A stretch of 64,000 nt of DNA from NCBI RefSeq assembly GCF_900312815.1, contig NZ_OMPE01000009.1:930001-994000 (forward strand), written 5' to 3'. The stretch comes from Aquimarina sp. AU474 (GTDB lineage Bacteria; Bacteroidota; Bacteroidia; Flavobacteriales; Flavobacteriaceae). The position numbers and the translations under genes were made by a program. The notes beneath the pieces were generated by a model that saw nothing but the letters and a program-made list of their open reading frames with translations, was not told where the DNA came from and made no database searches. This document shows, piece by piece, positions 18,923 to 33,291 of this stretch. Within the stretch, counting starts at the first letter, position 1; each line of letters begins with the position of its first letter.

Positions 18923-20614
18923 ATGAAAATAAACCCGTACAACATTATTTTACTATTAGGATGTCTGGGTATTGCAGTTTTCGCAGTTTTTAATCTTCTT
19001 TGTAACAAAAAGAAGAAAAAGACATTTAAGTATTTTTATTATTTCCTAATTACTGCCAGTTTGGTGATTCTTCAGATACTATTAATAGATTTTGGAATCA
19101 CTAAATTATACTCTTGGATTCTTATATTATATACTCCATTCGAATTTTTGTCTCCCGTTTTGTTTACAGCATTTACCTGTTACTATCTTGAAAAAGAAGA
19201 AGTATATCAAAAATATAGGCATTATCTTTTGATTCCGTTCGTGGTATTTTTTATTATATATACGGTAATAAAAGTTAACATATTTATAGATTATTCTGTT
19301 TTTTCAAGGAGTAGTGTTTCCTTTTTATTGAATGAAATAGATGAAAATTTTGCAGTTATTTTTTGTTTTCTACTTTCGGTATGGAATTATCGTATTATAC
19401 AAGAGTATGAGAATTCTTTAGGAAGATTATCTTTTGTTTATGTTAGGAAAAAAACAAAATGGATAAAGAGTGTTTTTATTACTTTAGTACTATTATCTAT
19501 ATTTTGGATGCTTACCATTATTCTTTTCTTTATTAAAGAAGAAGTAACGGGGCACTCTGCATATTATCCAATTTGGATATTGTATATGATCTTTTGCTAT
19601 GTTTTTATTTTTTTAGGAAGGAAACATTTAAATAAAGTATCGGGTCGCGTGAACAATTTAGAAGATCCTATACAAGAAAAGATTACTAAATTTCAACTAT
19701 CTGGATTAGAGCATGTTTTCTCAGAGAAAGAACTTCAATTAATACACTCTAATCCTATTTCGATAACTGGAATATTAAGCTATTTTGCCACTTCGTTGTT
19801 TGATAAAAACAAAAGTAATGATGTCTTATTAGATATTGTAGAAAACTGCATTTCTCAATTACAAATACAGCAGTGTAGTATCTATATGGTTTGTAATGAA
19901 AATAAAGTACTGATTCCTAAAGCGACATATAACAATAAAACTAATTGTGAAATTATTAAAAAGGAAAAAAGAATATCTATCCCTATAGAAGGAATCTTAG
20001 GTAAGGTTGTAATGACAGGCAAATATCAATACATAGAAGATTTAGGTGTAGTAGAAGATAACAACAACAATGTTGGAAAATCAAAACTTTCTATTCCATT
20101 ATTTATAAAAGAGAAAGTAATAGGAGTCCTTGATGTTGAACACGATGAAAAATCATATTTTGAACCCTACGATATTACATTGTTTTTATTGATAGCTAAA
20201 TTAACAGAAATAAAACTTTCTCAAATAAGAACAAATAATAGTGGTATTACTTATACTAACATCCCAAATGATAATGTTTATTTTAAAGAGCTAGAATTTA
20301 TAATGAAAGAAGAAAAGATATATCTGGACTCCAACTTAGGGCTTGAGAATATTTCTAAAAGATTACAAATAAGCAGCAATTATTTATCTCAGTTGATTAA
20401 TAAATTAGTGGGCAGCAATTTTAGTGATTATATAAATAGTCATAGGGTAGAGGAAGTAAAATCCAAGCTAAAAGATCCCGATTTTAGTAATTATACTATA
20501 CTCGGTATTGCAATGGAATCTGGTTTTAATTCAAAGTCTCCTTTTTATTCTGCATTTAAAAAACACACGGGAATCTCTCCCAAAGAATATAAGCAACGAC
20601 AAATTATCTCCTGA
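18923..20614 (+). CDS. Membrane GAF-domain regulator with AraC-type DNA-binding domain
   Basis: A 563-residue protein. Residues about 1-235 contain six or seven hydrophobic segments. A linker (about 236-285) leads to a GAF domain (about 285-435, starting ISITGILSYFATSLFDK) and a C-terminal AraC-type double helix-turn-helix (about 460-560). The latter contains ISSNYLSQLINKL, FSDYINSHRVEE, and ILGIAMESGFNSKSPFYSAFKK with GISPKEYK. It is a one-component sensor: the membrane part or GAF domain would sense a ligand. Its last 290 residues are clearly paralogous to the protein encoded at 24831-26042. The stop codon lies inside regulatory element A (20609-20642). It is the best local candidate, with its paralogue, for the regulator of the six-element regulon; that link is inferred. 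Confidence 0.85.
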   Translation: MKINPYNIILLLGCLGIAVFAVFNLLCNKKKKKTFKYFYYFLITASLVILQILLIDFGITKLYSWILILYTPFEFLSPVLFTAFTCYYLEKEEVYQKYRHYLLIPFVVFFIIYTVIKVNIFIDYSVFSRSSVSFLLNEIDENFAVIFCFLLSVWNYRIIQEYENSLGRLSFVYVRKKTKWIKSVFITLVLLSIFWMLTIILFFIKEEVTGHSAYYPIWILYMIFCYVFIFLGRKHLNKVSGRVNNLEDPIQEKITKFQLSGLEHVFSEKELQLIHSNPISITGILSYFATSLFDKNKSNDVLLDIVENCISQLQIQQCSIYMVCNENKVLIPKATYNNKTNCEIIKKEKRISIPIEGILGKVVMTGKYQYIEDLGVVEDNNNNVGKSKLSIPLFIKEKVIGVLDVEHDEKSYFEPYDITLFLLIAKLTEIKLSQIRTNNSGITYTNIPNDNVYFKELEFIMKEEKIYLDSNLGLENISKRLQISSNYLSQLINKLVGSNFSDYINSHRVEEVKSKLKDPDFSNYTILGIAMESGFNSKSPFYSAFKKHTGISPKEYKQRQIIS

Positions 20615-20669
20615 TTTCTTGAAATTCAAACTTTAAGGACATTTATAATTTTTAATAATATTAGAATTG
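20609..20669 (+). promoter_or_regulatory. Regulatory element A and -7-like box
   Basis: A 34-nt element (20609-20642) with outer arm TCCTGA, inner dyad TTGAA-A-TTCAA and end AAGGACAT, then exactly 19 nt and TAGAATTG (20662-20669), one mismatch from TAnnTTTG. It overlaps the stop codon of the preceding regulator gene. No gene follows in the plus direction; the next structure is a hairpin terminator at 20708-20750. The outer arm on the right (AAGGA) is the poorest of the six copies. Confidence 0.75.
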
Positions 20670-20675
20670 CATCTC

Positions 20676-20750
20676 ATTTGTATTGTATACAGTTGAGTTT
20701 GTGTATGAGGTGAGTATGATTTTAGATTTTTAAAATATACTCACCTTTTT
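20676..20750 (+). ncRNA. Candidate short non-coding transcript ending in a terminator hairpin
   Basis: From the predicted start of element A, about 75 nt run to a strong hairpin: AGGTGAGTAT (20708-20717) pairs fully with ATACTCACCT (20737-20746). An inner ATTTTA/TAAAAT stem follows a single bulged G, and five T come after. Only stop-rich tiny frames exist in this stretch. It could be a small RNA controlled with the regulon, or the remnant of a lost gene. The start is set from spacing only and may be off by a few nucleotides. Confidence 0.45.
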
Positions 20751-20835
20751 CAAAAACGTAAAAAATAAATTAAACAAAAATCGTAATCTAAGTTTGGTAT
20801 AATTGAGCAATACAAACTACAAAAAACAATAATGT

Positions 20836-20871
20836 AAAAAAGTCTCCGGCTATCGAAACTGGAGACTTCTT
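20836..20871 (-). terminator. Terminator of the 20978-21829 lipoprotein gene
   Basis: On the minus strand AAGTCTCC and GGAGACTT enclose a 13-nt loop and are followed by TTTT. It lies about 105 nt beyond the stop codon. Confidence 0.75.
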
Positions 20872-20977
20872 AATATCTGTAATTTTATAAACCCTAGTTG
20901 CAAGAGGGATATAATGCTTCTTCATTGGATCACTCAAATTGACTTGATTTTCTTACATCGCATTCAGGTTATAAATG

Positions 20978-21829
20978 TCATTTGTATTTTTTGAAATACA
21001 TTAAACCGCCATATACAAATCCTGAGGTGTACGGATCATTCGCTTTTATCTCCATATATCGTCTTTTGTTACTTGAGTATTCTTTTGCCCATGAGACCGT
21101 ATAGTAACTAGGGATTTTTATGCTGGTTACCCATATATAATTTCCCAATATGTTCTTTTTATAGGTAGCAATTCTAAGATCGTCATCATAATTACAGTTT
21201 GTAATGTCGAACCCGATTTTTTTACATTTGTCACTCCCTTTTTTCCCTGAAGAATAAAAACTATTAATACCATCAATTGAGTAATAGCCTTTATAAAGAC
21301 GAGAATACATACCATTACTGTCAAACTCTTGAATCATCTCATACGGGTTATCTGGCTCAATGCAAATGGAAGGAGGAGGGGTTGCCTTTTGCGTTTTAAA
21401 AATTTCAGATAATGATTTACCAATGATAGGTTCGGGATGATATGAAATAATGGCTCTTTCAGAAGCTTTTATCTTTATTTTTTGATCTTCTATAGCAATA
21501 CGAAGGCTCTCTGGAACAGCAACATCATTGTTGGTTATGGTAAGGAATAATTCTGAAATGCTTAACTCATTTAATATGCTCAATCCTTTAAATAAATCAG
21601 TTTTGCCAATAGCATGATAAGAGATCCCGTCTTTTTCTTTTATAAAAGATATGGTAATTTGTTCAGGTAATATCACTCTAGCCAATAATTTTTCCTCTAT
21701 ACTATTATTAATCGATTGTAATTCTGTTGATGAATCGGGCATCAAATTTTCTTCTTCTGTACAAGAATATAATAGGCTGCATACCATAATAAATAAGACT
21801 ACTTTCTTTTTAATTAATTTGATTTTCAT
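20978..21829 (-). CDS. Lipoprotein of unknown function under element B
   Basis: A 283-residue lipoprotein with a basic start, a hydrophobic stretch and lipobox LLYSC (Cys23) followed by TEEEN. The first half is polar and mixed; the second half, after a Thr-Pro-Pro stretch near 150, is Tyr-rich, with YSRLYKGYYSIDG, YKKNILGNYIWV and SFVYGG-like motifs at the end. I do not recognise a domain. Its promoter region holds element B, with the -7-like box 22 nt before the ATG. It is thus predicted to be co-controlled with the peptide and lipoprotein genes to its right. Confidence 0.75.
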   Translation of the reverse strand: MKIKLIKKKVVLFIMVCSLLYSCTEEENLMPDSSTELQSINNSIEEKLLARVILPEQITISFIKEKDGISYHAIGKTDLFKGLSILNELSISELFLTITNNDVAVPESLRIAIEDQKIKIKASERAIISYHPEPIIGKSLSEIFKTQKATPPPSICIEPDNPYEMIQEFDSNGMYSRLYKGYYSIDGINSFYSSGKKGSDKCKKIGFDITNCNYDDDLRIATYKKNILGNYIWVTSIKIPSYYTVSWAKEYSSNKRRYMEIKANDPYTSGFVYGGLMYFKKYK

Positions 21830-21850
21830 GTGTATAAAATTTTATTTCTG

Positions 21851-21911
21851 CAGATGTATCAAAATTAAATAACACCTATATCCTGATACTTTGATTTTAA
21901 AATTTTCAGGA
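21851..21911 (-). promoter_or_regulatory. Regulatory element B and -7-like box
   Basis: On the minus strand the 34-nt element covers 21911 down to 21878. Its outer arms TCCTGA and TCAGGA are perfectly complementary, 19 nt apart, and it ends in GGATAT. Nineteen nt later lies TACATCTG (21858-21851), one mismatch from TAnnTTTG. The inner dyad is degenerate (TTTTAAAATCAAA). The ATG of the lipoprotein gene follows 21 nt after the box. Confidence 0.8.
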
Positions 21912-22018
21912 CAAAGTTTTGGAATCGTATAGAGAATGAGCACATATTAGAAAGGATTTCTATTGTTTAACAGGAATAGTGCAGGTTTTTTCTAGAAACC
22001 TTCGTACTCACAAATATG

Positions 22019-22079
22019 TCCTGATTTTTTGAAACCATGTAAATCAGGACTTTCAAAAAGAAAAATAAATATAGATTCG
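22019..22079 (+). promoter_or_regulatory. Regulatory element C and -7-like box
   Basis: The 34-nt element (22019-22052) has perfect outer arms: GTCCTGATTT, counted with the base before it, against AAATCAGGAC. The inner left arm TTGAAA is present, while the inner right arm is lost. After exactly 19 nt comes TAGATTCG (22072-22079), one mismatch from TAnnTTTG. It should drive the six-cysteine GG-leader peptide at 22196. Confidence 0.8.
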
Positions 22080-22094
22080 GACCTTGTTTTGCAC

Positions 22095-22162
22095 AGTGTT
22101 TAAACACTTCAATAAAGCTGTAAAATCATAAAGACAGAGTTTCAGATGTCTATAAACTGTCT
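22095..22162 (+). promoter_or_regulatory. Structured leader of the GG-peptide gene
   Basis: The predicted 110-nt 5' leader contains a 14-bp perfect palindrome AGTGTTTAAACACT (22095-22108). It also contains a hairpin of AGACAG-ag-TTT with AAACTGTCT (22132-22162). The former could be an operator close to the transcription start; the latter could affect translation. No known riboswitch is recognised. Confidence 0.4.
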
Positions 22163-22195
22163 GGAGTTTTTTAATCAAATACAATTTATAATATT

Positions 22196-22378
22196 ATGTT
22201 ATTCGAAATTTTAAATGGAATTGAAACTAAAGTATTAGACAAAACAGCGCAAAAATCAATTAACGGAGGGGTTCGTGGTAATGGATGCGTAGGAGATCCT
22301 TGTAGTAGTGGTAAACACGGACAAAAATGTGGCTGCGGAGCGGTATGCTATAATAATGTATGTGGCTATAAAATATAA
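22196..22378 (+). CDS. Double-glycine-leader peptide with six-cysteine core
   Basis: A 60-residue precursor. Residues 1-25 form a leader ending in QKSINGG, the type cut by peptidase-containing ABC exporters. The core (26-60) has six Cys at 31, 36, 45, 47, 51 and 56, spaced C-x4-C-x8-C-x-C-x3-C-x4-C, which suggests three disulfides in a knottin-like compact fold. It is Gly-rich and basic. Bacteriocin-like GG peptides of this kind are common in Flavobacteriaceae, but the core is not one I recognise. No exporter or modifying enzyme is nearby. Element C lies upstream; a shared terminator lies downstream. Activity is unknown; a bacteriocin, signal or effector role is possible. Confidence 0.7.
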   Translation: MLFEILNGIETKVLDKTAQKSINGGVRGNGCVGDPCSSGKHGQKCGCGAVCYNNVCGYKI

Positions 22379-22474
22379 TCTTGGATTTATGTAATACAAT
22401 AAGGCAAGGTATAATCATACTAGATTCGCCTCAATAGGTTATTCTTTTTAAGCAGTTCATGCTTAAATATAACC

Positions 22475-22513
22475 AAATATGGAAGCAGTTGACATTACCC
22501 TGCTTCCATATTT
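22475..22513. terminator. Shared terminator between convergent peptide genes
   Basis: ATATGGAAGCA and TGCTTCCATAT form an 11-bp stem with A/T-rich flanks. It can serve both the plus-strand peptide gene (22196-22378) and the minus-strand one (22559-22768). Confidence 0.8.
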
Positions 22514-22558
22514 TAATCTTTAGAAATACTTCTAATTTATTTTTCAAAAATGCTAAAA

Positions 22559-22768
22559 CTACAGTTGAATTATTGTAGGAGTTGTGCAATTTGCTCCAAC
22601 TCGTGTTTGGCAATCAAGACCTTGGCTGTATGCCAAAATATCATCTTCTTCACATTTATAACAACTAGGTCTTCTACTTTTACGACCTCCTTGTATAGCA
22701 TTCATATTATTTAACTTAGCAACACTCAATTTTTGAAGGCTAAGTTTTTTCCCCCTTGCTTTTTTCAT
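22559..22768 (-). CDS. GG-leader RiPP precursor, class I lanthipeptide-like
   Basis: A 69-residue precursor. The leader (1-28) is basic and has the pattern KLSLQKLSVAKLN ending in NAIQGG, which matches the leader type of Bacteroidota class I lanthipeptides and related natural-product precursors. The core (29-69) has four Cys (36, 39, 53, 61) and several Ser/Thr, so lanthionine rings are possible. No LanB, LanC, LanM or radical SAM gene lies in the window, so any modification would need enzymes encoded elsewhere. A dyad of the second type (22856-22876) lies about 90 bp upstream. Whether the peptide is modified at all is unknown. Confidence 0.7.
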   Translation of the reverse strand: MKKARGKKLSLQKLSVAKLNNMNAIQGGRKSRRPSCYKCEEDDILAYSQGLDCQTRVGANCTTPTIIQL

Positions 22769-22855
22769 AATAGTTGATTTTAATTACTTTTTTATTTCCC
22801 GCCTTAAATATACAAGAAAAATAAACAAACAGGCTTTTGGTTAGGGAGTTGTAAT

Positions 22856-22876
22856 TCGAAATTCCGTGAATTTCGA
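22856..22876. promoter_or_regulatory. Second-type dyad, copy 1
   Basis: TCGAAATTC-cgt-GAATTTCGA is a perfect inverted repeat with 9-nt arms and a 3-nt spacer. It lies just after the stop of the TPR/AraC regulator gene and 88 bp before the start of the lanthipeptide-like gene. The second copy is at 24747-24767. Confidence 0.7.
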
Positions 22877-22881
22877 TAAAA

Positions 22882-24618
22882 TTATAGAATATCTAAATCG
22901 TTAAGTTTCTTAATAAAATAAGAAGTTTTAATACCTGTGGTTTTTTTAAATGCAGACGAAAAAGACTCGGCTGTATTGAACCCCATCTCTTCAGCAATGC
23001 CTTGGATGGTATAATTTTTTAAGGTGCTATTAGTCTTGAGTTGATCTACAGCATAAACAATCCTAAGATCATTAATATAGTTAGCAAAGTTCTTTTGCTT
23101 ATGATGGTTAATCACCTTCGATAGATACTTTGTATTGGTTTTAATATCCTTGGCTAAAGAGGTAACGCTGATATTTTTTTTCAAAAAAAGTTGCTTTTCT
23201 TCAAAAGCGTCAAGCTTACTAAGGATTTCTGCAATAATTTCTTCGGCTACCCCAATATCTGTATTAGTAGTTTGTTCATTGGTTAAGTTACCTTTATCAT
23301 CTTTTTTAATGAGTTGTTCAAACTTTGATTGATACGTCTTTCTTTTTTGATATTGTCGGTACAAAAAGACGATAACCACTAGTGTAAGTACAACAAGAAA
23401 AGCAACTAAAAAGTTTAAGCTTTTATTACTGCCTTTTAACTCACTAATCAATTTTTCTTTTTCTTTAAGCAAGGCAGGTGTATCAAATTCTTTAAATAAT
23501 CTAGAAGAAATGGATGAGGTCTCAGTATTTGCTATACTATCAAATTTCAATAACTTGTCGATGTACGCTAAGTGAGCTTCTTTATTGTTATTTTCTCTAG
23601 AGAAATTAATCATAACTTCATAACTCTCCCGCACTTCTAGAGGTGCTATTTTTTCACTTTGAAGGATAGAATCTACTACTATAAAATGTTGTTGTGCAGC
23701 AGCATTGTCTTGCCGTTTTAGTTTTAATTTACCCAAATAAAACTCACCTAAAATATGGGTTTGATTATTCTCTTTTTTAAATGTATTAAGTACTGTAAGT
23801 CCTTTAGAAATGCGATCATAAGCAGCGCCATAATTTTTTTTAAAGAAAAGATTAATCCCTTCATTAATGATGATCTTGCCATAATATCGATCATGATGAT
23901 ATTTAGACGCTCTAAGTTTTTGAAGAGCTTTCTGATTAATTATAGATGCAGAATCTAATCGGTTATTATATCGATACGACTCTGCCAGGGCGATTGCTGA
24001 TTTTAGATATCTAGTCGTATCAATAGGTTGTTTTTGACTATTGTGATTAAAATTTTCATTAAATAAAGGAAGTGCCTCATCATGTTTACCAATTATGGTT
24101 TTAATACGAGCAATATTATGTTTGGTGATATATAAGTACTCGGTATTATTGAAACGTTCTGCAATAGGGATTATCTTTAAATAATTATCGAGTGCCAGTG
24201 CGTAATTTCCTTTTCTTAAGTAATATCCTCCTTTAAAAGAATATGCTTCTATGGGATAGGTTTTGTTTTCTAATCCACTACTCAGTGCAATAGATCGATC
24301 AAGTAAGGCAAGTTTTTTTTGCTCTTCTATAGCATAATAAGATAATTGGCAATATGCCCTAGCCATTCTTATGGCATCATCTTCCGTTGTAGCTTTTTTT
24401 AAATAGGAATATAAGTATGTTTTAGAAGTCAAAGTATCTTGCCAATTTTTTAAATAGGAAGAGTATAATGCCTTATAATCCCATGTTTGTAAAGAATCTG
24501 GGATTACATATGCCTTATCTTCTTGGCTATAGGCGAATTGAGTAGTACACAGCAAAAAAAAGAATATTGCTGTTATGCCATAAGAGGGGATAAAAAGATA
24601 TGTCTTTTTTAATCTCAA
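22882..24618 (-). CDS. TPR-domain membrane regulator with AraC-type DNA-binding domain
   Basis: A 578-residue one-component regulator. A signal or membrane segment (about 12-32) is followed by a periplasmic block of tetratricopeptide-like helices (about 60-380), a membrane segment (about 395-417, NFLVAFLVVLTLVVIVFLY), a coiled linker and a C-terminal AraC-type domain (about 485-578). The latter contains TKYLSKVINHHK, FANYINDLRIVYAV and IQGIAEEMGFNTAESFSSAFKKTTG. This layout is typical of Flavobacteriaceae. The start is TTG, since the frame has a stop upstream and no ATG before the signal segment. Dyads of the second type lie beyond both ends of the gene, which suggests autoregulation or control of both neighbours. 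Confidence 0.85.
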   Translation of the reverse strand: MRLKKTYLFIPSYGITAIFFFLLCTTQFAYSQEDKAYVIPDSLQTWDYKALYSSYLKNWQDTLTSKTYLYSYLKKATTEDDAIRMARAYCQLSYYAIEEQKKLALLDRSIALSSGLENKTYPIEAYSFKGGYYLRKGNYALALDNYLKIIPIAERFNNTEYLYITKHNIARIKTIIGKHDEALPLFNENFNHNSQKQPIDTTRYLKSAIALAESYRYNNRLDSASIINQKALQKLRASKYHHDRYYGKIIINEGINLFFKKNYGAAYDRISKGLTVLNTFKKENNQTHILGEFYLGKLKLKRQDNAAAQQHFIVVDSILQSEKIAPLEVRESYEVMINFSRENNNKEAHLAYIDKLLKFDSIANTETSSISSRLFKEFDTPALLKEKEKLISELKGSNKSLNFLVAFLVVLTLVVIVFLYRQYQKRKTYQSKFEQLIKKDDKGNLTNEQTTNTDIGVAEEIIAEILSKLDAFEEKQLFLKKNISVTSLAKDIKTNTKYLSKVINHHKQKNFANYINDLRIVYAVDQLKTNSTLKNYTIQGIAEEMGFNTAESFSSAFKKTTGIKTSYFIKKLNDLDIL

Positions 24619-24659
24619 AAGGGTTTGTTCTTGATTCTAAATGTATTTACGCTATGGTA

Positions 24660-24695
24660 AAGATACTATTTTATTGATTTACAACATAGTATCTT
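24660..24695. repeat. Perfect inverted repeat upstream of the TPR regulator
   Basis: AAGATACTAT (24660-24669) and ATAGTATCTT (24686-24695) are fully complementary with a 16-nt spacer, 42 bp upstream of the TTG start. It could be an operator or a leader hairpin. Without a T run it is not a terminator. Confidence 0.5.
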
Positions 24696-24746
24696 ATAAA
24701 CAGTATAAATCAATGATTATCAGGTGTTTGATTCATGTTTTGTACT

Positions 24747-24767
24747 TCGGAATTCTGAGAATTTCGA
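24747..24767. promoter_or_regulatory. Second-type dyad, copy 2
   Basis: TCGGAATTC-tga-GAATTTCGA matches the dyad at 22856-22876 in both arms except one base. It lies between the divergent TPR/AraC and GAF/AraC regulator genes and could act on either. Confidence 0.7.
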
Positions 24768-24776
24768 GATATTCCG

Positions 24777-24809
24777 TTTGTTTTTTCCTCTAATGTAAAG
24801 GTATATTTG
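24777..24809 (+). promoter_or_regulatory. Promoter of the second GAF regulator
   Basis: TTTG (24777-24780), 21 nt, then TATATTTG (24802-24809), a full match to TAnnTTTG. It decides the start of the next gene: the TTG at 24807 lies inside the -7 box, so the ATG at 24831 is used. Confidence 0.65.
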
Positions 24810-24830
24810 ACAAGGACAAAAAAACTTCTC

Positions 24831-26042
24831 ATGGAGAATAACAAGAAAAATATTGGAGGCATTACAGTAATAAAAGTTGCTGTGATATTGATATGCTTCC
24901 CTATGTTTTTTTTAGTAAACCATACGTATACTTCCTTTTTGTACCTATTATTTCTTTCGGCAGGAAGTATTATTGCATTACTCACTCAGAATATAGAAGA
25001 GTTAAAAACGATATTGTTTGATAGGCTTTTGAAACTTAATTTTTCTAGTAGTACAATGTTATCAGGAGGTGTTCAATATACTTTTAACGAGCCAAAAACT
25101 TTAGATAATAATACACTCAAGAAAAATGCTAAGGATAAAAACAAAGGATGTTCCAGTCAATTTTTCTCAGAAATAGAAAATGATTTTTTGGATAATCCTT
25201 CAAGAGAAACATTATCCATATTAAGCTATTTTGCAACTTCATTATTCGGGAAAAACAATACAGATGAGGTTCTTTGGGATATTGTCGAAAATTGTATTTC
25301 ACAATTGCACTTAGAAGATTGTGTGATCTATATCCTAGACAAACAAAAGAAAGTATTGAATCAAAAAACAGCGTACGGAAATAAAAATAATGGACAAAAA
25401 AAAGTAATAAGCCCTATTCAGATCAAGGTCGGAGAAGGCATTGTGGGGTGTGTTGCTCAAACGGGGACTTATCGATGTGTGAAGGATGTAACATTAAATT
25501 CTAACTATATTATTGATGACGCCCAACGAATGTCTGAATTATCTGTACCTATTTTTATCGAAGATGAATTGATAGGTGTTCTTGACTCTGAGCATTCTCA
25601 AAAAGACTTTTTTACGCAAGAACATATTTTCTTATTTCATTTAATAGCCAAACTTACAGAGAAAAAGCTCACACACATTTATGCAAAAACTGCATGTAAT
25701 ATTACTTCCAACAATGTGTATTTTAAAGAGCTTGATTTTTTGATGAAAGAAGCAAAGATATACAGAGATCCTAATTTGGGATTAGATAGTATGGCCCAAA
25801 AATTAAAAATTAGCAGCAATTACCTATCACAATTAGTGAACAAGTTAGCCCATCAAAACTTTGCCGATTATGTAAATGGGTTCAGAATTGAAGACGCAAA
25901 ATCCAAATTAAGAAATTCGAAATTTATACACTATACAGTAATCAGTATTGGCTTAGAATCGGGTTTTAATTCAAAATCTACTTTTTATAGCGCATTCAAA
26001 AAACTTGTAGGAGTCTCACCTAGTACTTATAGAAAATCCTAA
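24831..26042 (+). CDS. GAF-domain regulator with AraC-type DNA-binding domain
   Basis: A 403-residue protein with two hydrophobic segments near the N terminus (about 10-55), a GAF domain (about 125-280, with SILSYFATSLFGK and DIVENCISQL) and a C-terminal AraC-type domain (about 300-403). The latter contains ISSNYLSQLVNKL, FADYVNGFRIED, and ISIGLESGFNSKSTFYSAFKK with GVSPSTYRK. It is a paralogue of the last 290 residues of the 18923-20614 protein, but it has a much shorter membrane part, so its input may differ. The DNA-contacting helices are nearly the same in both, and the two may bind related sites. Element D begins 10 bp after its stop codon. Confidence 0.85.
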   Translation: MENNKKNIGGITVIKVAVILICFPMFFLVNHTYTSFLYLLFLSAGSIIALLTQNIEELKTILFDRLLKLNFSSSTMLSGGVQYTFNEPKTLDNNTLKKNAKDKNKGCSSQFFSEIENDFLDNPSRETLSILSYFATSLFGKNNTDEVLWDIVENCISQLHLEDCVIYILDKQKKVLNQKTAYGNKNNGQKKVISPIQIKVGEGIVGCVAQTGTYRCVKDVTLNSNYIIDDAQRMSELSVPIFIEDELIGVLDSEHSQKDFFTQEHIFLFHLIAKLTEKKLTHIYAKTACNITSNNVYFKELDFLMKEAKIYRDPNLGLDSMAQKLKISSNYLSQLVNKLAHQNFADYVNGFRIEDAKSKLRNSKFIHYTVISIGLESGFNSKSTFYSAFKKLVGVSPSTYRKS

Positions 26043-26051
26043 CCTAATACG

Positions 26052-26112
26052 TCCGGATTCTTTGAAATTCAAACTTTCTGGATATCTGTATTTCTAAGTC
26101 CAACTACTTTTG
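26052..26112 (+). promoter_or_regulatory. Regulatory element D and -7 box
   Basis: Element 26052-26085 has TCCGGA, TTTGAAATTCAAA and TCTGGA followed by TAT. Then come 19 nt and TACTTTTG (26105-26112), a full TAnnTTTG match. It lies 88 nt upstream of the repeat lipoprotein gene at 26201. Confidence 0.85.
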
Positions 26113-26200
26113 TTTCATACATCTACAATAACAATAGATGAAGCAATCACATTAAGAGCTATAACAGATACACAACGCTGTGTAAATTAAAATAACCACA

Positions 26201-27763
26201 ATGAAAAAGAATCATTTTTTATATATAGTACTCACTATGGTAATACTTATTATAAGTTGTAGTGAAGACGAAGAAATAGTTGCACCGCCGCAAAATCAAA
26301 ATCCAGGAGCTTTTTCGATAGAAGTTGCGCAAATAACCGTGAATAGTGCATTACTTAAATGGAACCCTGCTATTGATCCTGATAATGATAAAGTGACATA
26401 TACTGTATTTTTATTAGATAATGAGGTAGTGTCGGATATTGAAAACACAGAATTTTTATTAGAGAACCTAGAGCCCAAAACAAACTATACTGGGATGATA
26501 ATGGCTTCAGATGGTAAAACAGGAATAACCGAGAGTACATTTCTGTTTTCAACTATTGAAAACACGAATGGAGAAATAGGTATTGTTTGGCAAAAATCTC
26601 TAGGCGGTGATGTTAATGATGAGGCGTATGTGATACGAGAAACCGATGATGGAGGATATATTATCGGAGGAGTTTCAGAATCTGATAATGGAGATGTAAG
26701 TGAAAATAAGGGAGGAAAAGATTGTTGGGTTGTAAGATTAGATAATGTTGGTAATATTGTATGGGAAAAAAACTTTGGAGGAAGCCAAAATGAAACTATT
26801 CATGATATTCAATTAACAGATGATGGGGGTTATATTGTAGGTGCATTTTCGACATCTAGTGATGGAGATGTATCCGGAAACAATGGGATGCGTGACTTCT
26901 GGATTGTAAAACTAAATGCTTCTGGAGATCTGGTATGGGAAACTAATATAGGAGGTGAAAGTGATGATATTCTAGAGTCAATTATACAAGCTGCCGATGG
27001 AGGCTATATTGCTTCAGGGTTTTCGAGTTCTGATGAGATAGGGATTAATGGTCAATCTGATGCATGGATTGTAAAATTAGATGATTTAGGCAATTTGCTT
27101 TGGGAAACAAATATAGGAGGATCACAAAGAGATATTGCTATGTCTATAGATAATACAATAGATCAGGGATTTGTAGTAGCTGGATATACTGAAACTTCTG
27201 ATGATAAAAGAGATGTGTGGATGGCAAAGTTTAATGAAGCAGGAGGGCTTGAGTGGCAAAATACTTATGGTGGATCTGATGATGAAGAAGCAGGTTCGGT
27301 ACAGCAAACGTTGGATGGTGGGTATATTATTTCGGGATATTCAAGATCAAGTGATAGTGACGTTACAGAAAATAAAGGATCTGCAGATGGCTGGGTAATA
27401 AAAACAAACAGCGCAGGAGGTTTAATGTGGGAGAAAACGTATGGAGGTATGGGGTCCGAAGGAATAAGTGACATACAACAAACCAACGACGGAGGATACA
27501 TTGCAACGGGCAGCTCCAGTTCTTCCGATGGGGATATTGAAGAAAATAATGGCGCACGCGATTTTTGGATTTTAAGATTGAACAATAGCGGTACGATCGT
27601 TTGGCAAAAGAATTTGGGTAGTGAAGGAGATGACTATGCATTTTCTATACAACAAACAGCAGATCAAGGTTATGCTGTTGCGGGGTCATGGTATACTAAT
27701 ATTATGGGTAATGGAGAAGGAACAACGGGTGATTTTAACTATTGGGTAATAAAACTACAATAA
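26201..27763 (+). CDS. Lipoprotein with FN3 domain and W-x-K-x-GG...DGGY repeats
   Basis: A 520-residue lipoprotein (lipobox LIISC, Cys20, then SEDEE). A fibronectin type III-like domain (about 35-120) is followed by about seven repeats of 55 residues, of the kind seen at 2605-3972: W-x-K-x-(L/F/Y)-GG-x4-E/D, then T-DGGY, S-SDGDV and D-x-W-(I/V)-x-K. The repeats are likely blades of a beta-propeller on the cell surface. It is the first gene behind element D and so a predicted regulon member. A terminator follows, so it forms its own transcript. Confidence 0.8.
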   Translation: MKKNHFLYIVLTMVILIISCSEDEEIVAPPQNQNPGAFSIEVAQITVNSALLKWNPAIDPDNDKVTYTVFLLDNEVVSDIENTEFLLENLEPKTNYTGMIMASDGKTGITESTFLFSTIENTNGEIGIVWQKSLGGDVNDEAYVIRETDDGGYIIGGVSESDNGDVSENKGGKDCWVVRLDNVGNIVWEKNFGGSQNETIHDIQLTDDGGYIVGAFSTSSDGDVSGNNGMRDFWIVKLNASGDLVWETNIGGESDDILESIIQAADGGYIASGFSSSDEIGINGQSDAWIVKLDDLGNLLWETNIGGSQRDIAMSIDNTIDQGFVVAGYTETSDDKRDVWMAKFNEAGGLEWQNTYGGSDDEEAGSVQQTLDGGYIISGYSRSSDSDVTENKGSADGWVIKTNSAGGLMWEKTYGGMGSEGISDIQQTNDGGYIATGSSSSSDGDIEENNGARDFWILRLNNSGTIVWQKNLGSEGDDYAFSIQQTADQGYAVAGSWYTNIMGNGEGTTGDFNYWVIKLQ

Positions 27764-27827
27764 GTGTAACACTACTTTGTATACGTAATGATTAAGTTTT
27801 TTTGTCCAATTGCTTTTCATTACCCGG

Positions 27828-27874
27828 AGATCCTCATTAACTAGCCTAAACTATAGTGATGGGGATCTTTTTTT
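27828..27874 (+). terminator. Hairpin terminator
   Basis: AGATCCtCAT pairs with ATGgGGATCT across a 20-nt A/T-rich loop; seven T follow. It ends the 26201-27763 transcript. Confidence 0.75.
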
Positions 27875-27911
27875 ATGATACAGTAACCAGTATAATACTT
27901 ATATTTAAGAG

Positions 27912-29267
27912 ATGAACCGTACCAAAATCACAATCTTATTTTTAATAGCAAATTTTTGTGTTGTTTTTCCTTGTTTTTGGGATTATGATACCATTGAAAT
28001 GGAAAGGCAACAATTTCCTAGTGTGATCGAATTGATTTCGGGAAAATTTCTTAGACATTCACCAGAGTTTTATTATTGGAGAGTAAAGGATAGAGAAGAA
28101 AAACTCAAAAATTCTCCTGATAGCCTCTACCTCCTTGATGACTTGGCCGTTTCATATTCAAAGATTGGAGATAACAAAAAGGCAATAGAGATTATATTCA
28201 AAAAAGAACAAATCCAACCTGGAGAATATGAAACGTATGCAAATTTGGGCACATTTTATTTGCATGATGGACAATTTTCTAAAGGAATTCAATATATAGA
28301 AAAAGCAATAGCGATTAATCCCAATGCGCATTTTGGAAGAGAAATATATCAACTATATGTTGCTCAATATGTTCTTGGTAAGATGAAAGATGGTAAGATA
28401 CCATTTCCATTATCGTCCAAATTTAGAACTTGTCTAGCTTGTCTTCCCAAACCTTATCTTGAAGATAATTTCTATACTTTTTTAGTAGATAAGCATAGAG
28501 AAGGTGATGAAAAATCAAAGAGAAGATTATCTAAAAAAGAATTAGAAAAGGCCATTATTGGTATTTTGGGAATGATGAAATTTGGTAATCACGACTCCCC
28601 TATTTTATTAGAAGTATTAGGAGATTTATTAGTGGGGGCAGCAAGAAAAGAAGGAGCAAGACAATTGGCGGCTAGAGCTTATTTTAAAGCATCTTATAAA
28701 TTTGAGAATGAGAAAACAAAAGAAGTTTATAGAAAAAAGATCATAGCAGCACTTTATCATCAATACACAAAAAAGAGAGGTAAAAAATTCAACTTATATG
28801 AGTTAGAAGAATTGTTAACAGAAGAGATTGAAGAAGGAAATACGTACTACAATGGGGTACGAAAAGATGAAATGAGTTGGATACTAACGGGTAAAAATCC
28901 AGAACACGAATTTGATGTAAAATACTATGTGGCACCAACGATAGGAATAAGAATTCAAAACAGTAAAGGGGAAGAAAGTGATATAACAAAACGATATTCA
29001 AGAGATACCACTATTGGAAAAATTATAGATTATCGACCAATTCCAAAACAAAATATACTTTTGAGTATTGCCGCAAAAGAAAGTATAGATAGTTTATTTG
29101 AGAAGGATCTAATTAAGGAAGAAAGAATACCCAATAATGATGGCATAGAGAAAAAAGAGAATCCAAAAACAAAATATTGGGTAGTTGCATTATTGCTAAT
29201 GGGTATTTTGGGCATTGGTTTTTGGATATGGGTAAGAGCAAAAAACAATAATATCAGTAATAGATAA
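27912..29267 (+). CDS. Tetratricopeptide-repeat protein with C-terminal membrane anchor
   Basis: A 451-residue protein with an N-terminal signal segment (about 5-22). Helical TPR units follow (about 55-150, for example AVSYSKIGDNKKAIEIIF and LGTFYLHDGQFSKGIQYIEKAIAIN). The middle is Lys/Glu-rich, and a hydrophobic C-terminal segment (about 420-440, VVALLLMGILGIGFWIWV) ends in basic residues. It is therefore probably a periplasmic protein anchored in the inner membrane. No catalytic motif is seen. It has no copy of the regulon element in front and lies between two regulon units. Function unknown. Confidence 0.75.
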   Translation: MNRTKITILFLIANFCVVFPCFWDYDTIEMERQQFPSVIELISGKFLRHSPEFYYWRVKDREEKLKNSPDSLYLLDDLAVSYSKIGDNKKAIEIIFKKEQIQPGEYETYANLGTFYLHDGQFSKGIQYIEKAIAINPNAHFGREIYQLYVAQYVLGKMKDGKIPFPLSSKFRTCLACLPKPYLEDNFYTFLVDKHREGDEKSKRRLSKKELEKAIIGILGMMKFGNHDSPILLEVLGDLLVGAARKEGARQLAARAYFKASYKFENEKTKEVYRKKIIAALYHQYTKKRGKKFNLYELEELLTEEIEEGNTYYNGVRKDEMSWILTGKNPEHEFDVKYYVAPTIGIRIQNSKGEESDITKRYSRDTTIGKIIDYRPIPKQNILLSIAAKESIDSLFEKDLIKEERIPNNDGIEKKENPKTKYWVVALLLMGILGIGFWIWVRAKNNNISNR

Positions 29268-29346
29268 GATTAAAATAGCTATTGTTGATTTTCTTCTAAA
29301 CAGGGCTTTTACTTTTTGTCTTCCCGAGTAAACCCCTTTAAATACG

Positions 29347-29407
29347 TCCGAATTCTTTGAAATTCAAACTTTCTGGATATCCAAAAATACTTCCCTCACT
29401 AGGTTTG
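29347..29407 (+). promoter_or_regulatory. Regulatory element E and -7 box
   Basis: Element 29347-29380 (TCCGAA, inner dyad TTGAA-A-TTCAA, TCTGGATAT), 19 nt, then TAGGTTTG (29400-29407), a full -7 match. The ATG of the collagen-like lipoprotein follows after 27 nt. Confidence 0.85.
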
Positions 29408-29434
29408 TGACCTAAACTTTTTAAAAACATAAAA

Positions 29435-30019
29435 ATGAAGGTAATGAAAAATTTAGTGAAGCTAAGTTGGATACTTGTGATCTTAATTTCTCTATTTTCT
29501 TGTTCAGATGGAGAAGACGGTTCAATAGGTCCAGTTGGAGAACAAGGAGAACAAGGACCAATAGGAGAGCAAGGAGATCCGGGAACAGCAAATGTGATAT
29601 ATTCAGACTGGATTCCAAATGGTTTTAATCCAGGAGGGGGATTACTCCAAAAACTATTCACATTAGCTAGTGAACAACAGATTACAGATTTAGGGGTTAA
29701 TCTAGATACAAGTACTGTTTTGGTGTACGGCAGAGGTGATATCTTAGCAGTAATTGGAGATGAAGTACTTCCATTGCCTTATGAAAATAGAGCTACCGAT
29801 GAGCGATATACCTATGCCATTTATAATGGATCTATACGAGCGGTAGGATTAGCAGCCTCGAATACTGATAATGATTTTGATCGCTTTGATGACTATAGAT
29901 ATGTTATTATACCAGGAGGAGTAGCGGTTGGTTCAAATACGTCATCTATAAAATCTAAGATAGATTATACCACGATGTCCTATCAACAAATTGCCATCCT
30001 ATTTAATATCCCAGAATAA
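29435..30019 (+). CDS. Collagen-like lipoprotein, copy 1
   Basis: A 194-residue lipoprotein (lipobox LFSC, then SDGEDG). It has about nine Gly-x-Y triplets (GPVGEQGEQGP and onward to GDPGTA) and then a globular domain beginning ANVIYSDW and ending with [11 protein letters not shown] and IDY-x2-MSYQQ. The triplets can form a short collagen-like triple helix that trimerises the protein on the surface. It is paralogous to 33319-33906 from the start of the mature protein to the end, and both have the same regulatory element. It is the first gene after element E; a hairpin terminator follows. Confidence 0.8.
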   Translation: MKVMKNLVKLSWILVILISLFSCSDGEDGSIGPVGEQGEQGPIGEQGDPGTANVIYSDWIPNGFNPGGGLLQKLFTLASEQQITDLGVNLDTSTVLVYGRGDILAVIGDEVLPLPYENRATDERYTYAIYNGSIRAVGLAASNTDNDFDRFDDYRYVIIPGGVAVGSNTSSIKSKIDYTTMSYQQIAILFNIPE

Positions 30020-30083
30020 TGAATTGAGCCTGATAATAGAGATATACTTCTATTATGTTACCCCATTTAATTTTTTGACTATG

Positions 30084-30122
30084 CCCTTCAGACGTTGTAA
30101 ATAGTTCATCTGAAGGGTTTTT
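30084..30122 (+). terminator. Hairpin terminator after collagen-like gene 1
   Basis: CCCTTCAGA and TCTGAAGGG pair fully across a 16-nt loop and are followed by TTTTT. It lies 65 nt after the stop codon, so the genes after it may be expressed by read-through or by a separate promoter. Confidence 0.85.
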
Positions 30123-30146
30123 AAAAAAATACAAAATCAAATAAAA

Positions 30147-31160
30147 ATGAAAAATCAGATATATTTAATTTTAGCAATCATGTGTTTGACTTTAGTGTCT
30201 TGCGATATTGAAGAAGAAGAAGTGATTGAAGATTCAGAAGCAGTAACTTCTAAAATGTTATTTCCAAAAACTAAACATCTTAAATCCACACTTGTCACTA
30301 AAGAAGTACCTTTTGGAGGACGAGCAAGACATGCCTCTTTAATCTTTGATAAAAAGATGTGGGTGATCGCTGGTAATGGACCAGGTATTTATTATAACGA
30401 TGCTTGGTTTAGTACTAATGGAACAGATTGGGTTGCTGCTACAAAAAATGCAGCATTTTCTAAGCGAGCGAATCATGCTGTAACAGTTTCTAATGGAAAA
30501 ATGTGGATAACGGGAGGTACAATATCTGCCGCAATGAATGATGTATGGTACTCTAAGGATGGCAAACAATGGAATTTGGCAACGAAAAATGCTGCTTTTT
30601 CTCCACGATCCGGTCATGGGATGGCAACCTTGAACGGAAGAATGTTCGTTATCGGAGGTCATGAAAATGGTGTTGAAAAAGGAGATGTTTGGGTAAGTGG
30701 CGATGGTATAAACTGGAGTTTGGCTACCAACTTAGCTCCTTTTGGTGAACGAAGAGATCACTCAGTAACGGTTTACGATAATAAGATATGGGTTATAGGA
30801 GGGTATGACATTAATAATAATTTTTTAAACGATGTATGGTATTCTCCAAATGGTTATCAATGGTTTATTGCTACTGCAAATGCAAACTTTCTACCTAGAA
30901 GAGATCATGGATTAACCACAAATGAAAAAGGAATGTGGCTTACCGCCGGAACACGAAATAATGACTTTAAATATTTTAATGATATCTGGTTTAGTAATGA
31001 TGGTATAAACTGGACCGAAGTTAAGGCTTCTAAAAATTATCCAGAAAGAACAGAGCACACCTCATTGTATTATGATAAAAAATTATGGGTGATTAATGGA
31101 TATGGATTAGATCTAGGGAATTACTATGATTTTTATACCGATGTGTGGTCTTTTGAATAA
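30147..31160 (+). CDS. Kelch-like repeat lipoprotein
   Basis: A 337-residue lipoprotein (lipobox LVSC, Cys19, before DIEEEE). It has about six repeats of some 48 residues of the form R-x2-H, then M/I-W-V-x-G-G, NDVWYS-x-DG and W-x2-A-T-x-N-A-x-F. They match the Kelch/galactose-oxidase beta-propeller style, so the protein is a surface or periplasmic propeller. A binding function is likely, but no ligand can be named. It is followed closely by two more genes on the same strand, suggesting an operon with 31173-32496. Confidence 0.75.
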   Translation: MKNQIYLILAIMCLTLVSCDIEEEEVIEDSEAVTSKMLFPKTKHLKSTLVTKEVPFGGRARHASLIFDKKMWVIAGNGPGIYYNDAWFSTNGTDWVAATKNAAFSKRANHAVTVSNGKMWITGGTISAAMNDVWYSKDGKQWNLATKNAAFSPRSGHGMATLNGRMFVIGGHENGVEKGDVWVSGDGINWSLATNLAPFGERRDHSVTVYDNKIWVIGGYDINNNFLNDVWYSPNGYQWFIATANANFLPRRDHGLTTNEKGMWLTAGTRNNDFKYFNDIWFSNDGINWTEVKASKNYPERTEHTSLYYDKKLWVINGYGLDLGNYYDFYTDVWSFE

Positions 31161-31172
31161 AAAACAGAAAAA

Positions 31173-31862
31173 ATGAAAACAATAAAAATAAATATAACTA
31201 TCGCATTAATCAGTCTACTATGGGCTTGTAGTAGCGATGATGATTCGGGAAATATTAGATTAGAGTATCCAGAAGTATTTGAAACCCTTTATCTAAATGA
31301 AACGGAAGTTTCTCCTACAGTTTTGGATTGGCAAGGAGAAATAGGGACACTTTCGATTTCTTCTACAACCGAGATTTTAAATAGACCCGTAGTATTTTTT
31401 GATGAAGATACAGGTGTTATTTCGTGGGGTAATAGATTACCTCTAGGTGCTTTTCCATTTGTGATTGAAGCAAAAAACTCGACAAGTACCGCAAGATTTG
31501 AAATTATAATAGAGAATAAATTTGAAGAAGGCCTTTTTGAAGGAGGTTTTTTGGAAGATACTTCAGATGAGCCAGATTTTTCGATGATATCTCAGGAGTA
31601 TTTTTTAACCTTTCTTGATGATGGAACATTTACAATGCAAAATTTTGATATGCCAGATCTTTCTTTTGAAGGAGAATGGATTATTGATGGTTCGAGGGTT
31701 ATTGCAACTCGTATAGATGATATGGCCGCAAATGATTTTATAATGGTGGGTTATATCTCTGTTGGTAATTCACCAGGTTTTTCGGGAAGATATGGTTCGA
31801 GTTTAAACGATCAGGATGAAATCCAAGATTTTGAAGGGATTTTTAGATTCGATTTAGATTAA
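31173..31862 (+). CDS. Lipoprotein of unknown function with acidic beta domain
   Basis: A 229-residue lipoprotein (lipobox LWAC, Cys19, followed by SSDDDSG). The first half resembles a bacterial Ig-like domain. The second half (TFTMQNFDMPDLSFEGEWIIDGSRVIATR) has the look of a lipocalin-like or DUF-type barrel, with an F-D-G-x-W motif. It is acidic throughout. It starts 12 bp after the Kelch-like gene and precedes the SIMPL-domain gene. I do not recognise a named family. Confidence 0.6.
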   Translation: MKTIKINITIALISLLWACSSDDDSGNIRLEYPEVFETLYLNETEVSPTVLDWQGEIGTLSISSTTEILNRPVVFFDEDTGVISWGNRLPLGAFPFVIEAKNSTSTARFEIIIENKFEEGLFEGGFLEDTSDEPDFSMISQEYFLTFLDDGTFTMQNFDMPDLSFEGEWIIDGSRVIATRIDDMAANDFIMVGYISVGNSPGFSGRYGSSLNDQDEIQDFEGIFRFDLD

Positions 31863-31890
31863 TATATACATAACTATTAGAGAAAAAGAC

Positions 31891-32496
31891 ATGAAAAAAA
31901 TAATTATAGGTATATTATTGTGTACCGCACCAATTTTTGGACAACAACAAAATACAATAACAGTAATTGGCGAGACATTCAAAAAAACAACTATTAAAGA
32001 ATACGTCGTTAATATTGAAATTAAAGATATCGTAGCTGATACATATCAAAATATAGAATCTAAGAAGAGACCTCAGCTTATTGAAGAATATAAAAGTAAA
32101 TTAAATAGTATTGGTATAGATTTCAAAAAGTTCAAAGAAAACAAACTATATGCGGTCACTGGTCTTACTCACCGTACAAATTCGAATTATTACTATACAA
32201 CAACATCTTTTGAAGAGGTAGAAAAAATGTTTGGACAATTGATAAAAGGAGTAACGATTATCTGGATTGATATAATACCAAATGAAAGCACAAATACCGA
32301 AATTGCAACATTGAATAGTATGGCAATACAAGATGCAGCGAATAAGGCTACACTAACCGCCAAAAACATCAATAAAAAAATTGGCGATATTCAAAAAGTA
32401 GAAACATTGGATAATAGGCAATCCAAGTATTATAATACTGCTAAACCAAAAGAACCTCAGAAATACTATGTGCAGGTTACATTTTTGCTAGAGTAA
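31891..32496 (+). CDS. SIMPL-domain (DUF541-like) secreted protein
   Basis: A 201-residue secreted protein with a signal peptide (cleavage after IFGQ). The domain begins ITVIGETFKK and ends with QDAANKATLTAKNINKKIGDI and YYVQVTFLL, as in SIMPL-fold proteins. These periplasmic proteins form ring-like oligomers, and some are linked to oxidative stress. The family match is by pattern only. It lies 28 bp after the preceding gene and 35 bp before the next. Confidence 0.65.
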   Translation: MKKIIIGILLCTAPIFGQQQNTITVIGETFKKTTIKEYVVNIEIKDIVADTYQNIESKKRPQLIEEYKSKLNSIGIDFKKFKENKLYAVTGLTHRTNSNYYYTTTSFEEVEKMFGQLIKGVTIIWIDIIPNESTNTEIATLNSMAIQDAANKATLTAKNINKKIGDIQKVETLDNRQSKYYNTAKPKEPQKYYVQVTFLLE

Positions 32497-32531
32497 ATGT
32501 GTTAATTTAAAAAATAAAACCACAGTATACC

Positions 32532-33158
32532 ATGAAAAGAATATATCAGATTATAGCATTATGTTTTAGTACTCTTTCTTGTGCAAATTTGAACAAAAGT
32601 AATGCTCCCACTCAAGTAGCTGCGTATACAAAAACAAATCAGCAAGTGGTACCTAATAATGATACACTTAAAGTAGGATATACATATTGGTGGCCTCAAT
32701 CTGGACCTTTTATTGGATACTGTGGTAGTAGTTATACATTAGCTTTTTTGGGAACGGTTGATCATATTGACCAGCCTATAAAAAATGAAGATTTACTCTA
32801 TGTTTCCCAAAAAGGCATCATTAATATTGAAGAAGTATTGACTGCAAGAGATGTAAAGAAAAGTTCTTTTAGATCCCAAAAATTCTTTGTTTCAACATGC
32901 TTTTATGAACAAGGTTTAAAAAAGGGAGATAAGGTTCTGGTTTTTTGTTATGAATATGAGGGCGATTATAGTATACCTGGAGGGGAATCGATACTAAAAA
33001 TTAAAAACAGCAATGATCAGGTAGTTAGATCTATTAAAAGATATATTAAATCTGGTCAAAATGGATTAGAGTTAAAAAAGGACATTGCTTTGTGGGAGAA
33101 ATATGGTTTAAGAGAGGATGTAAAACGGGTCATCGCTTGTAAAGAGAGAGTAGATTAA
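32532..33158 (+). CDS. Hypothetical lipoprotein
   Basis: A 208-residue protein with a lipobox LSC (Cys17, after FSTLS). It contains one conspicuous block, YWWPQSGPFIGYCGSSYTL (about residues 50-68), and several Lys-rich stretches. No domain is recognised. It is the last gene of the 30147-33158 run and lies before element F. Confidence 0.6.
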   Translation: MKRIYQIIALCFSTLSCANLNKSNAPTQVAAYTKTNQQVVPNNDTLKVGYTYWWPQSGPFIGYCGSSYTLAFLGTVDHIDQPIKNEDLLYVSQKGIINIEEVLTARDVKKSSFRSQKFFVSTCFYEQGLKKGDKVLVFCYEYEGDYSIPGGESILKIKNSNDQVVRSIKRYIKSGQNGLELKKDIALWEKYGLREDVKRVIACKERVD

Positions 33159-33230
33159 AAACGAAACATCTAAACCAACTATAAAAGCGGTGTTTACCGT
33201 ATGAGATTGAGTCGAACCTCTCAAAAAATG

Positions 33231-33291
33231 TCCGGATTCTTTGAAATTCAAGCTTTTCGGATATATCAAGTTACTTCCCCAGTTAGGTTTG
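33231..33291 (+). promoter_or_regulatory. Regulatory element F and -7 box
   Basis: Element 33231-33264 (TCCGGA, TTTGAAATTCAA, then GCTTTTCGGATAT), 19 nt, then TAGGTTTG (33284-33291), a full -7 match. The ATG of collagen-like lipoprotein 2 follows 27 nt later, as with element E. Confidence 0.85.

Follow-up and report, generated by a model that had tools for sequence, protein, structure and literature searches.

The question raised by this locus is what six copies of a nested inverted repeat do among the lipoprotein genes of Aquimarina sp. AU474, and which protein acts on them. The locus lies on contig NZ_OMPE01000009.1 at positions 930,001 to 994,000, and this whole stretch of 64,000 nucleotides (nt) is here called the window. 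The element is a 34-nt dyad placed at a fixed distance in front of a promoter box. Its copies belong to a real, conserved regulon with an operator of fixed geometry, and the targets are mainly lipoproteins, most often collagen-like ones. We infer with good confidence that two proteins with a GAF domain and an AraC-type DNA-binding domain (GAF-AraC, 18923-20614 and 24807-26042) bind the dyad as their operator and activate the lipoprotein promoters. The site, its fixed spacing, its co-occurrence with and adjacency to the regulator genes, the target classes and the conservation across genera were all computed directly.

The element and its genes

The sequence-only reading had placed six 34-nt elements in the window, and all of them were recovered, the minus-strand copy spanning 21878-21911. 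The proposed consensus of outer arms and inner arms around one centre describes five copies closely, but the copy at 22019 keeps both outer arms and only the left inner arm. Scored against the 20 fixed arm bases of the dyad, the mismatches are 1 (20609), 2 (21911, minus strand), 5 (22019), 0 (26052), 1 (29347) and 1 (33231). The ending GGAYAT is found in five of the six elements, whereas 22019 ends in GGACTT. The inner arms form TTGAA-N-TTCAA, to which the outer arms are added, and the half-sites are inverted around one base. Between the end of the 34-mer and a -7 box with at most one mismatch there are, as claimed, exactly 19 nt (N19) in all six cases. The boxes are, in element order, TAGAATTG, TACATCTG, TAGATTCG, TACTTTTG, TAGGTTTG and TAGGTTTG. 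The OmpA promoter with which this layout had been compared, TTTG-N19-TACATTTG, is located at 60282 on the plus strand. The features, with open reading frames (ORFs) and helix-turn-helix (HTH) domains, are as follows.

18923..20614, plus strand: regulator 1, 563 amino acids, with a hydrophobic N-terminal region (read from the sequence, without a predictor), GAF and C-terminal AraC-type HTH (Pfam GAF, GAF_2, HTH_18)
20609..20642, plus strand: dyad element, overlapping the stop codon of regulator 1
20662..20669, plus strand: -7 box TAGAATTG, N19 past the element, with no ORF following in this genome
20978..21829, minus strand: target lipoprotein with a lipoprotein-like start; ATG 21 nt past the box
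21851..21858, minus strand: -7 box TACATCTG
21878..21911, minus strand: dyad element of TCCTGA/TCAGGA type
22019..22052, plus strand: weakest dyad element, 5 mismatches, right inner arm missing
22072..22079, plus strand: -7 box TAGATTCG
22196..22378, plus strand: target, a small GG-leader peptide (QKSINGG); ATG 116 nt past the box
22882..24618, minus strand: TPR-AraC protein (Pfam), neighbour of the elements
24807..26042, plus strand: regulator 2, GAF and AraC-type HTH (Pfam), 411 amino acids from a TTG, true start uncertain
26052..26085, plus strand: dyad element, 9 nt past the stop codon of regulator 2
26105..26112, plus strand: -7 box TACTTTTG
26201..27763, plus strand: target fn3-domain lipoprotein, 520 amino acids (Pfam fn3)
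29347..29380, plus strand: dyad element
29400..29407, plus strand: -7 box TAGGTTTG
29435..30019, plus strand: target collagen-like lipoprotein; Collagen model 20.1 bits, below the cut-off of 27.2; aligned with 27 others
30147..31160, plus strand: kelch-repeat lipoprotein (Pfam kelch) behind the collagen-like gene
33231..33264, plus strand: dyad element
33284..33291, plus strand: -7 box TAGGTTTG
33319..33906, plus strand: target collagen-like lipoprotein; Pfam Collagen 27.7 bits (cut-off 27.2) and alignment

With up to 3 mismatches, a dyad with the box at its offset occurs five times in the window and not once in 60 first-order Markov resamples; with up to 6 mismatches the window has six and all 60 resamples together have three. 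The genome-wide scan that had been proposed was made over the 4,838,585 bases of the own genome at 3 mismatches or fewer, a threshold for which the 22019 element is too degenerate. It gave six places, five in the cluster of the window and one at C7:912315-912351; the reversed dyad, used as a control, gave none. The additional site, 18 kb ahead of the window and some 38 kb away from the cluster, is followed by N19, the box TACATTAG (one mismatch) and, 26 nt on, a lipoprotein gene. This site lay outside the window originally viewed, and its spacing, box and lipoprotein gene agree with the prediction.

The spacing was followed in 42 sequences (40 loci, L014 and the window with its own copies), which had been picked by dyad or regulator and not by box. 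In 92 of 100 dyads with 3 mismatches or fewer, the sigma-A -7 box TAnnTTTG with at most one mismatch stands at offset 22, counted from the 31-mer, on at least one side. These boxes occupy 99 sides in total, as seven dyads have a box on both sides. Other offsets gave counts of 0-7, except 20 at offset 36 and 10 at offset 44; these side peaks of -7-like boxes (L105-L144) sit 14 and 22 nt beyond the main box.

Behind the boxes 120 ORFs were found, of which 106 are lipoprotein-like according to a crude sequence pattern. Copies lying mainly inside genes or lacking a -7 box, the outcome that the sequence-only reading had named as speaking against a regulon, are thus not what was seen. The target classes are a collagen-like cluster (49), fn3-type proteins (19), kelch-type proteins (13, directly behind elements in relatives), proteins of about 160 amino acids (9), proteins of mostly about 655 amino acids in Kordia, Bizionia and a metagenome-assembled genome (MAG; 6), GG peptides (3 plus that of the window) and others. 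One tested protein of about 655 amino acids has BTRD1 repeats and a beta-lactamase-family domain. The start codon lies 25-29 nt past the box in 61 of the 120 targets; with this and the fixed box offset, the independence of genes and promoters that is the hallmark of a dispersed repeat was not found. A C-terminal beta domain was predicted confidently for the collagen-like protein, for which a fold search gave no good PDB match (best E 0.15). The expectation that the targets are lipoproteins, a GG peptide and two collagen-like proteins was borne out, except that the 20609 element has no ORF behind it; five relatives keep a lipoprotein gene at the matching place. The kelch-repeat lipoprotein gene at 30147..31160 is possibly co-transcribed with the collagen-like gene ahead of it.

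Promoter anatomy and mode of action

For the promoter anatomy one orientation per dyad was taken, with 4 mismatches or fewer, and the window copies were added. This gave 97 promoters from Aquimarina and 38 from outside the genus, reduced to 50 and 31 when those 80% alike were removed. Conservation in the 50 Aquimarina promoters is 94-100% at 15 of the 20 fixed arm positions, a value that arises partly by construction because the dyad arms served as search key; the spacer positions 35-53 reach only 34-60%. The half-site is TCCNGANNNTTTGAA in Aquimarina, and elsewhere the outer arm is mostly TCCTG and the inner arm variable.

Bacteroidota sigma-A promoters have the -33/-7 motifs TTTG/TAnnTTTG, with the -7 box at -12 to -5, according to the accessible parts of PMC6847099 and PMC9723704. 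With the box at that place the dyad covers -65 to -35, with its centre at -50. It had been proposed that the last bases of the element stand in for the -33 TTTG. A TTTG at N19 was indeed found in none of the 81 non-redundant promoters, but this is weak evidence, as TTTG-N19 is rare before ordinary boxes too (2 of 122). A TTG at N18-20 occurs in 0 of 81 element promoters and 11 of 122 ordinary boxes; this low background, together with a -33 motif that is generally poorly marked in F. johnsoniae (PMC6847099, accessible part), is why the missing -33 TTTG weighs little. At the two middle bases of the box (-10/-9), 18 of the 31 non-redundant outside promoters carry GG, compared with 19 of 391 other boxes in such loci (p 1e-13). 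In Aquimarina the numbers are 8 of 50 compared with 38 of 826 (p 0.003), or 25 of 97 before redundancy was removed. As far as the accessible part of PMC6847099 goes, G is virtually absent from those box positions in F. johnsoniae. Boxes with GG and without a -33 TTG would suit, rather than prove, promoters that need help.

A mechanism can be proposed from this layout. Each 15-bp half-site has two blocks about one helical turn apart, which would fit the two HTH motifs of one AraC-type domain. A dimer would place two such domains on the inverted repeat, and the proximal half-site would reach the -33 region and substitute for the -33 box. A signal acting on the GAF domain and/or the membrane part would then turn on the promoters of collagen-like, kelch, fn3 and other lipoproteins and of a few GG-leader peptides. 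Binding, dimer stoichiometry, activation and signal are the steps that we infer.

The same proteins could use the same dyad for repression, the site masking the -33 region and blocking polymerase until a signal arrives. Inverted repeats are common for repressors, and the 34-mer extends to -32, the place of the would-be -33 TTTG. Against this, the boxes look poor for an unaided polymerase, with GG at -10/-9 in the frequencies given above and virtually none in F. johnsoniae (PMC6847099, accessible part). This argument, like the lack of TTG at N18-20 in the 81 promoters, is indirect. Activation is considered likely, and repression an improbable alternative that still deserves some weight.

Activators of the AraC/XylS family (AraC, RhaS, MelR) act at class II promoters. 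The present system resembles these activators in the double-HTH domain, in a site that lies upstream of and reaches the -35 region, and in half-site blocks one helical turn apart. It differs in the inverted repeat with a one-base centre (there usually direct repeats), the Bacteroidota box TAnnTTTG, the GAF domain, the hydrophobic N-terminal region of the longer proteins and the site copy at the 3' end of the regulator. AraC-type control through an inverted repeat that is coupled to the 3' end of the regulator gene itself would be a known kind of control in a new form. No description of such a regulon, and no account of how collagen-like lipoproteins are controlled in marine Bacteroidota, was found in the literature searched, where subscription papers were thinly covered. 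Operators of Crp/Fnr type, TTGAT-N4-ATCAA or similar, were considered and rejected, as the site is TTGAA-N-TTCAA with outer arms and the linked gene is AraC-type (no search was aimed at Crp/Fnr genes).

The -7 box and the short 5' leader are those of Bacteroidota sigma-A promoters (PMC6847099, PMC9723704, accessible parts), from which the element promoters differ in the missing -33 TTTG and the common GG inside the box. The accessible part of PMC9276737 describes PclR/pclA of Streptococcus pneumoniae, in which a dedicated activator, encoded beside a collagen-like surface protein gene, binds upstream of the core promoter. The adjoining of regulator and collagen-like surface protein genes is shared, with activation here a matter of likelihood. 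PclR, however, resembles MgaSpn and forms a divergent pair with its target in a Gram-positive host, whereas here the regulator is AraC-type, codirectional and linked to several targets (PMC9276737).

The GAF-AraC proteins and their site across genomes

The three AraC-type proteins that had been noted in the region were found at 18923-20614, 22882-24618 (minus strand) and 24807-26042. The HTH_18 E-values of the two GAF-AraC proteins are 2.9e-18 and 6.1e-17, which places their HTH in the AraC type, and the PDB profile matches include MarA, Rob, SoxS and AraC. In the AlphaFold model of regulator 2 the GAF and HTH parts are confident and residues 72-120 and 1-10 poor. Profile matches of the GAF domain are scattered over fRMsr, PtsP and cyclic-nucleotide GAF domains, and no ligand is proposed.

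The co-occurrence was counted in 52 Aquimarina genomes, with the dyad at 2 mismatches or fewer and GAF-AraC relatives at more than 200 bits. The dyad is present in 29 genomes, the reversed control in 0 and the regulator in 29. Both are found in 28 genomes and neither in 22; one genome (G015) has the dyad alone and one (G011) the regulator alone. The Fisher p is 1.9e-12, a value that overstates independence since the genomes are related. A looser pattern that includes the box matches 31 genomes, namely the same 29, G011 and G020. The element overlaps the stop codon or starts 4-9 nt past it in 31 of 45 Aquimarina regulator genes, and the same 31-mer overlaps the stop of regulator 1 in five further genomes.

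Outside the genus, loci were drawn from a set of 68, of which 33 were left out (Aquimarina and the MAG L184), and the requirements were a dyad with 6 mismatches or fewer and, at offset 22, a box with no more than one mismatch. The 28 loci with a full-length regulator relative include Flavivirga, Croceivirga, Bizionia, Maribacter, Kordia, Dokdonia, Euzebyella, Flagellimonas and Allomuricauda as well as a Cytophagales MAG and Fodinibius roseus (Balneolota). Dyad and box were found in 22 of them, with 24 elements; other offsets gave 0-2 each. Four of the other six loci have TCC-N25-GGA-N22-TAnnTTTG without mismatch behind the regulator, which gives 26 of 28 in all. Each of the 24 elements follows the regulator in the same orientation, and in 16 loci one lies within 40 nt of the aligned regulator end, in 12 of these at exactly 16 nt. 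GAF-only relatives had dyad and box in 0 of 7 loci. In another set of 15 genomes from other genera, site and box occur in 14; other offsets gave 0-2, and 60 permuted palindromes gave none. The miss, L162, has the outer arms and box exact. Species overlap between this set, the 28 loci and the outside anatomy set.

In other genera the regulator served as the starting point for finding the sites, whose inner arms have diverged while outer arms, offset and box are kept. Extending the strict consensus to the family was rejected as chance level, since it matched seven genomes outside the genus and its reversed control also matched seven. Of the former only G180 combines an exact box at that offset with a gene for an exported protein, and its site adjoins a regulator; the same site is L173 of the 15-genome set. 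The local regulon suggested for the window is thus supported but confined neither to 15 kb nor to the genus Aquimarina.

The partner of the site is very probably the GAF-AraC proteins. Another regulator, the TPR-AraC protein at 22882-24618 or an unlinked factor, could instead bind the site with the GAF-AraC genes as passengers. The TPR-AraC gene sits between elements, in some relatives (G016 and G046, for example) its ortholog is next to regulator 2, and G015 has a site without a GAF-AraC relative. This alternative is nevertheless quite unlikely, since TPR-AraC orthologs (more than 700 bits) are found in 11 of the 52 genomes compared with 29 for the dyad, and the site stays behind the GAF-AraC gene across genera. 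On the former count TPR-AraC was rejected as general partner of the element. Of the AraC-type regulators proposed as partners, it is the two GAF-AraC proteins that occur together with the site and next to it; for TPR-AraC this is generally not so.

Several observations weigh against the GAF-AraC proteins as activators at this site. AraC proteins more often bind direct repeats, and the usual direct-repeat half-sites were not found here, the half-sites being inverted around one base. The single site of G015, a genome with no such regulator, is perfect, and the regulator-bearing G011 has only a 3-mismatch site. The looser pattern gives nine reversed-control matches in seven genomes, and two matches in G020, which lacks the regulator; one of these two is the site of another AraC gene. 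Eight of the 100 dyads have no box within one mismatch. In five of the eight the box at offset 22 has two mismatches (one, L107:12306, only TTTTTTTA), in two an exact box lies at offset 21, and L141:782 lacks a box at offset 22. No element stands directly behind 14 of the 45 regulator genes, one of which has it 178 nt on, and in G010 and G042 no dyad with 3 mismatches or fewer was found in 20 kb round the regulator. Among the outside loci L222 has no site, L215 has none at offset 22 (by eye, the outer arms are present and the box is one base nearer), and the Fodinibius site has a box with one mismatch and no ORF found within 250 nt behind it.

With an operator defined, the promoter geometry fixed, a regulator proposed and targets listed in Aquimarina, Kordia, Flagellimonas and Maribacter, one can directly test a surface-protein circuit of marine Bacteroidota.

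Growth of the regulon and neighbouring observations

For the 66 dyads that are not adjacent to a regulator, the 41 nt upstream were compared with regulator 3' ends both in register and in 45 shifted registers. In 16 dyads the in-register likeness exceeds all the shifted ones; about 1.4 would be expected, and some of the 16 are related to each other. The best scar precedes a collagen-like gene at L121:1108 and shares 89% identity with a regulator 1 tail over 53 nt; that at L114:16678 has 81% over 42 nt. Of the window copies, 29347 fails the register test and 33231 passes it only weakly, at 0.56 identity; among the best blastn matches listed, neither has an in-register match. The scar matches indicate that some targets very probably arose when a regulator tail was copied along with operator and gene. 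The regulon probably grew in part by cassette duplication, and this growth may be readable from sequence scars.

The copies could then be alike mainly as duplicates of one gene cassette rather than through selection on the site. The 16 scars, including the one at 89%, and the use of the arms as search key speak for this. However, box and offset were not searched for and are kept in the 92 of 100 dyads while the spacer is poorly conserved, other genera change the inner arms and keep outer arms, offset and box, and the layout is common to unrelated target families. Duplication as the main cause of the likeness is accordingly very unlikely. That the element is a plain dispersed repeat, a hairpin or a chance match can be dismissed as negligibly probable: the dyad could fold as a hairpin and the strict family-level pattern is no commoner than its reversed control, but the box offset is exact, the copies are restricted to one region of the own genome, Markov resamples gave none at 3 mismatches or fewer, and the offset counts, the permuted-palindrome control and the 28-locus scan contradict it.

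A wider history is put forward tentatively and as somewhat short of an even chance. One inherited module may unite the regulator gene, the operator (in or next to the regulator's stop codon) and a sigma-A promoter whose -7 box (TAGGTTTG) is poor. New targets would be recruited when the 3' tail is copied together with the operator, the promoter and a lipoprotein gene; the copied tail would later decay to a scar while arms, box and spacing stay. If so, the regulon would record its own growth, and a collagen-like coat would have been enlarged under one sensor.

Behind the 20609 element, the spacer, leader and terminator-like hairpin (AGGTGAGTA...TACTCACCTTTTT) at 20643-20750 match L106 in 96 of 111 aligned columns. 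In L106 a lipoprotein ORF follows that leader; in the window the ORF is gone and the leader kept. A tblastn search for a remnant of the lost target behind 20609 gave no significant match (best E 8.6, elsewhere). The retained leader may be a small RNA or an attenuator.

Where regulator 1 has no element behind it (G009, G014, G018, G026, G033, G034, G038, G043 and G044), a shared, terminator-like sequence TTGTAAAAAAAGTTGTTCTTTTACA follows, in G038 as a variant. Among the matches listed, symmetric TCCTGA...TCAGGA elements are found only in G000, G001, G002, G004, G027 and G030, and regulator 1 in these six genomes is that of the window or 78-79% identical to it. This hints that the symmetric type may be a separate specificity.

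Near the GG peptide gene, 22559-22768 on the minus strand encodes a small peptide with a leader like those of class I lanthipeptides, below the NCBIfam cut-off (18.3 compared with 22 bits). In five Aquimarina genomes (L246-L250) a direct repeat of TTCTAACTTTT stands behind another AraC paralog, within about 20 nt of the paralog's stop codon, and is followed by TAATTTTG and the gene of a 135-amino-acid lipoprotein, which is the same layout with a different site.

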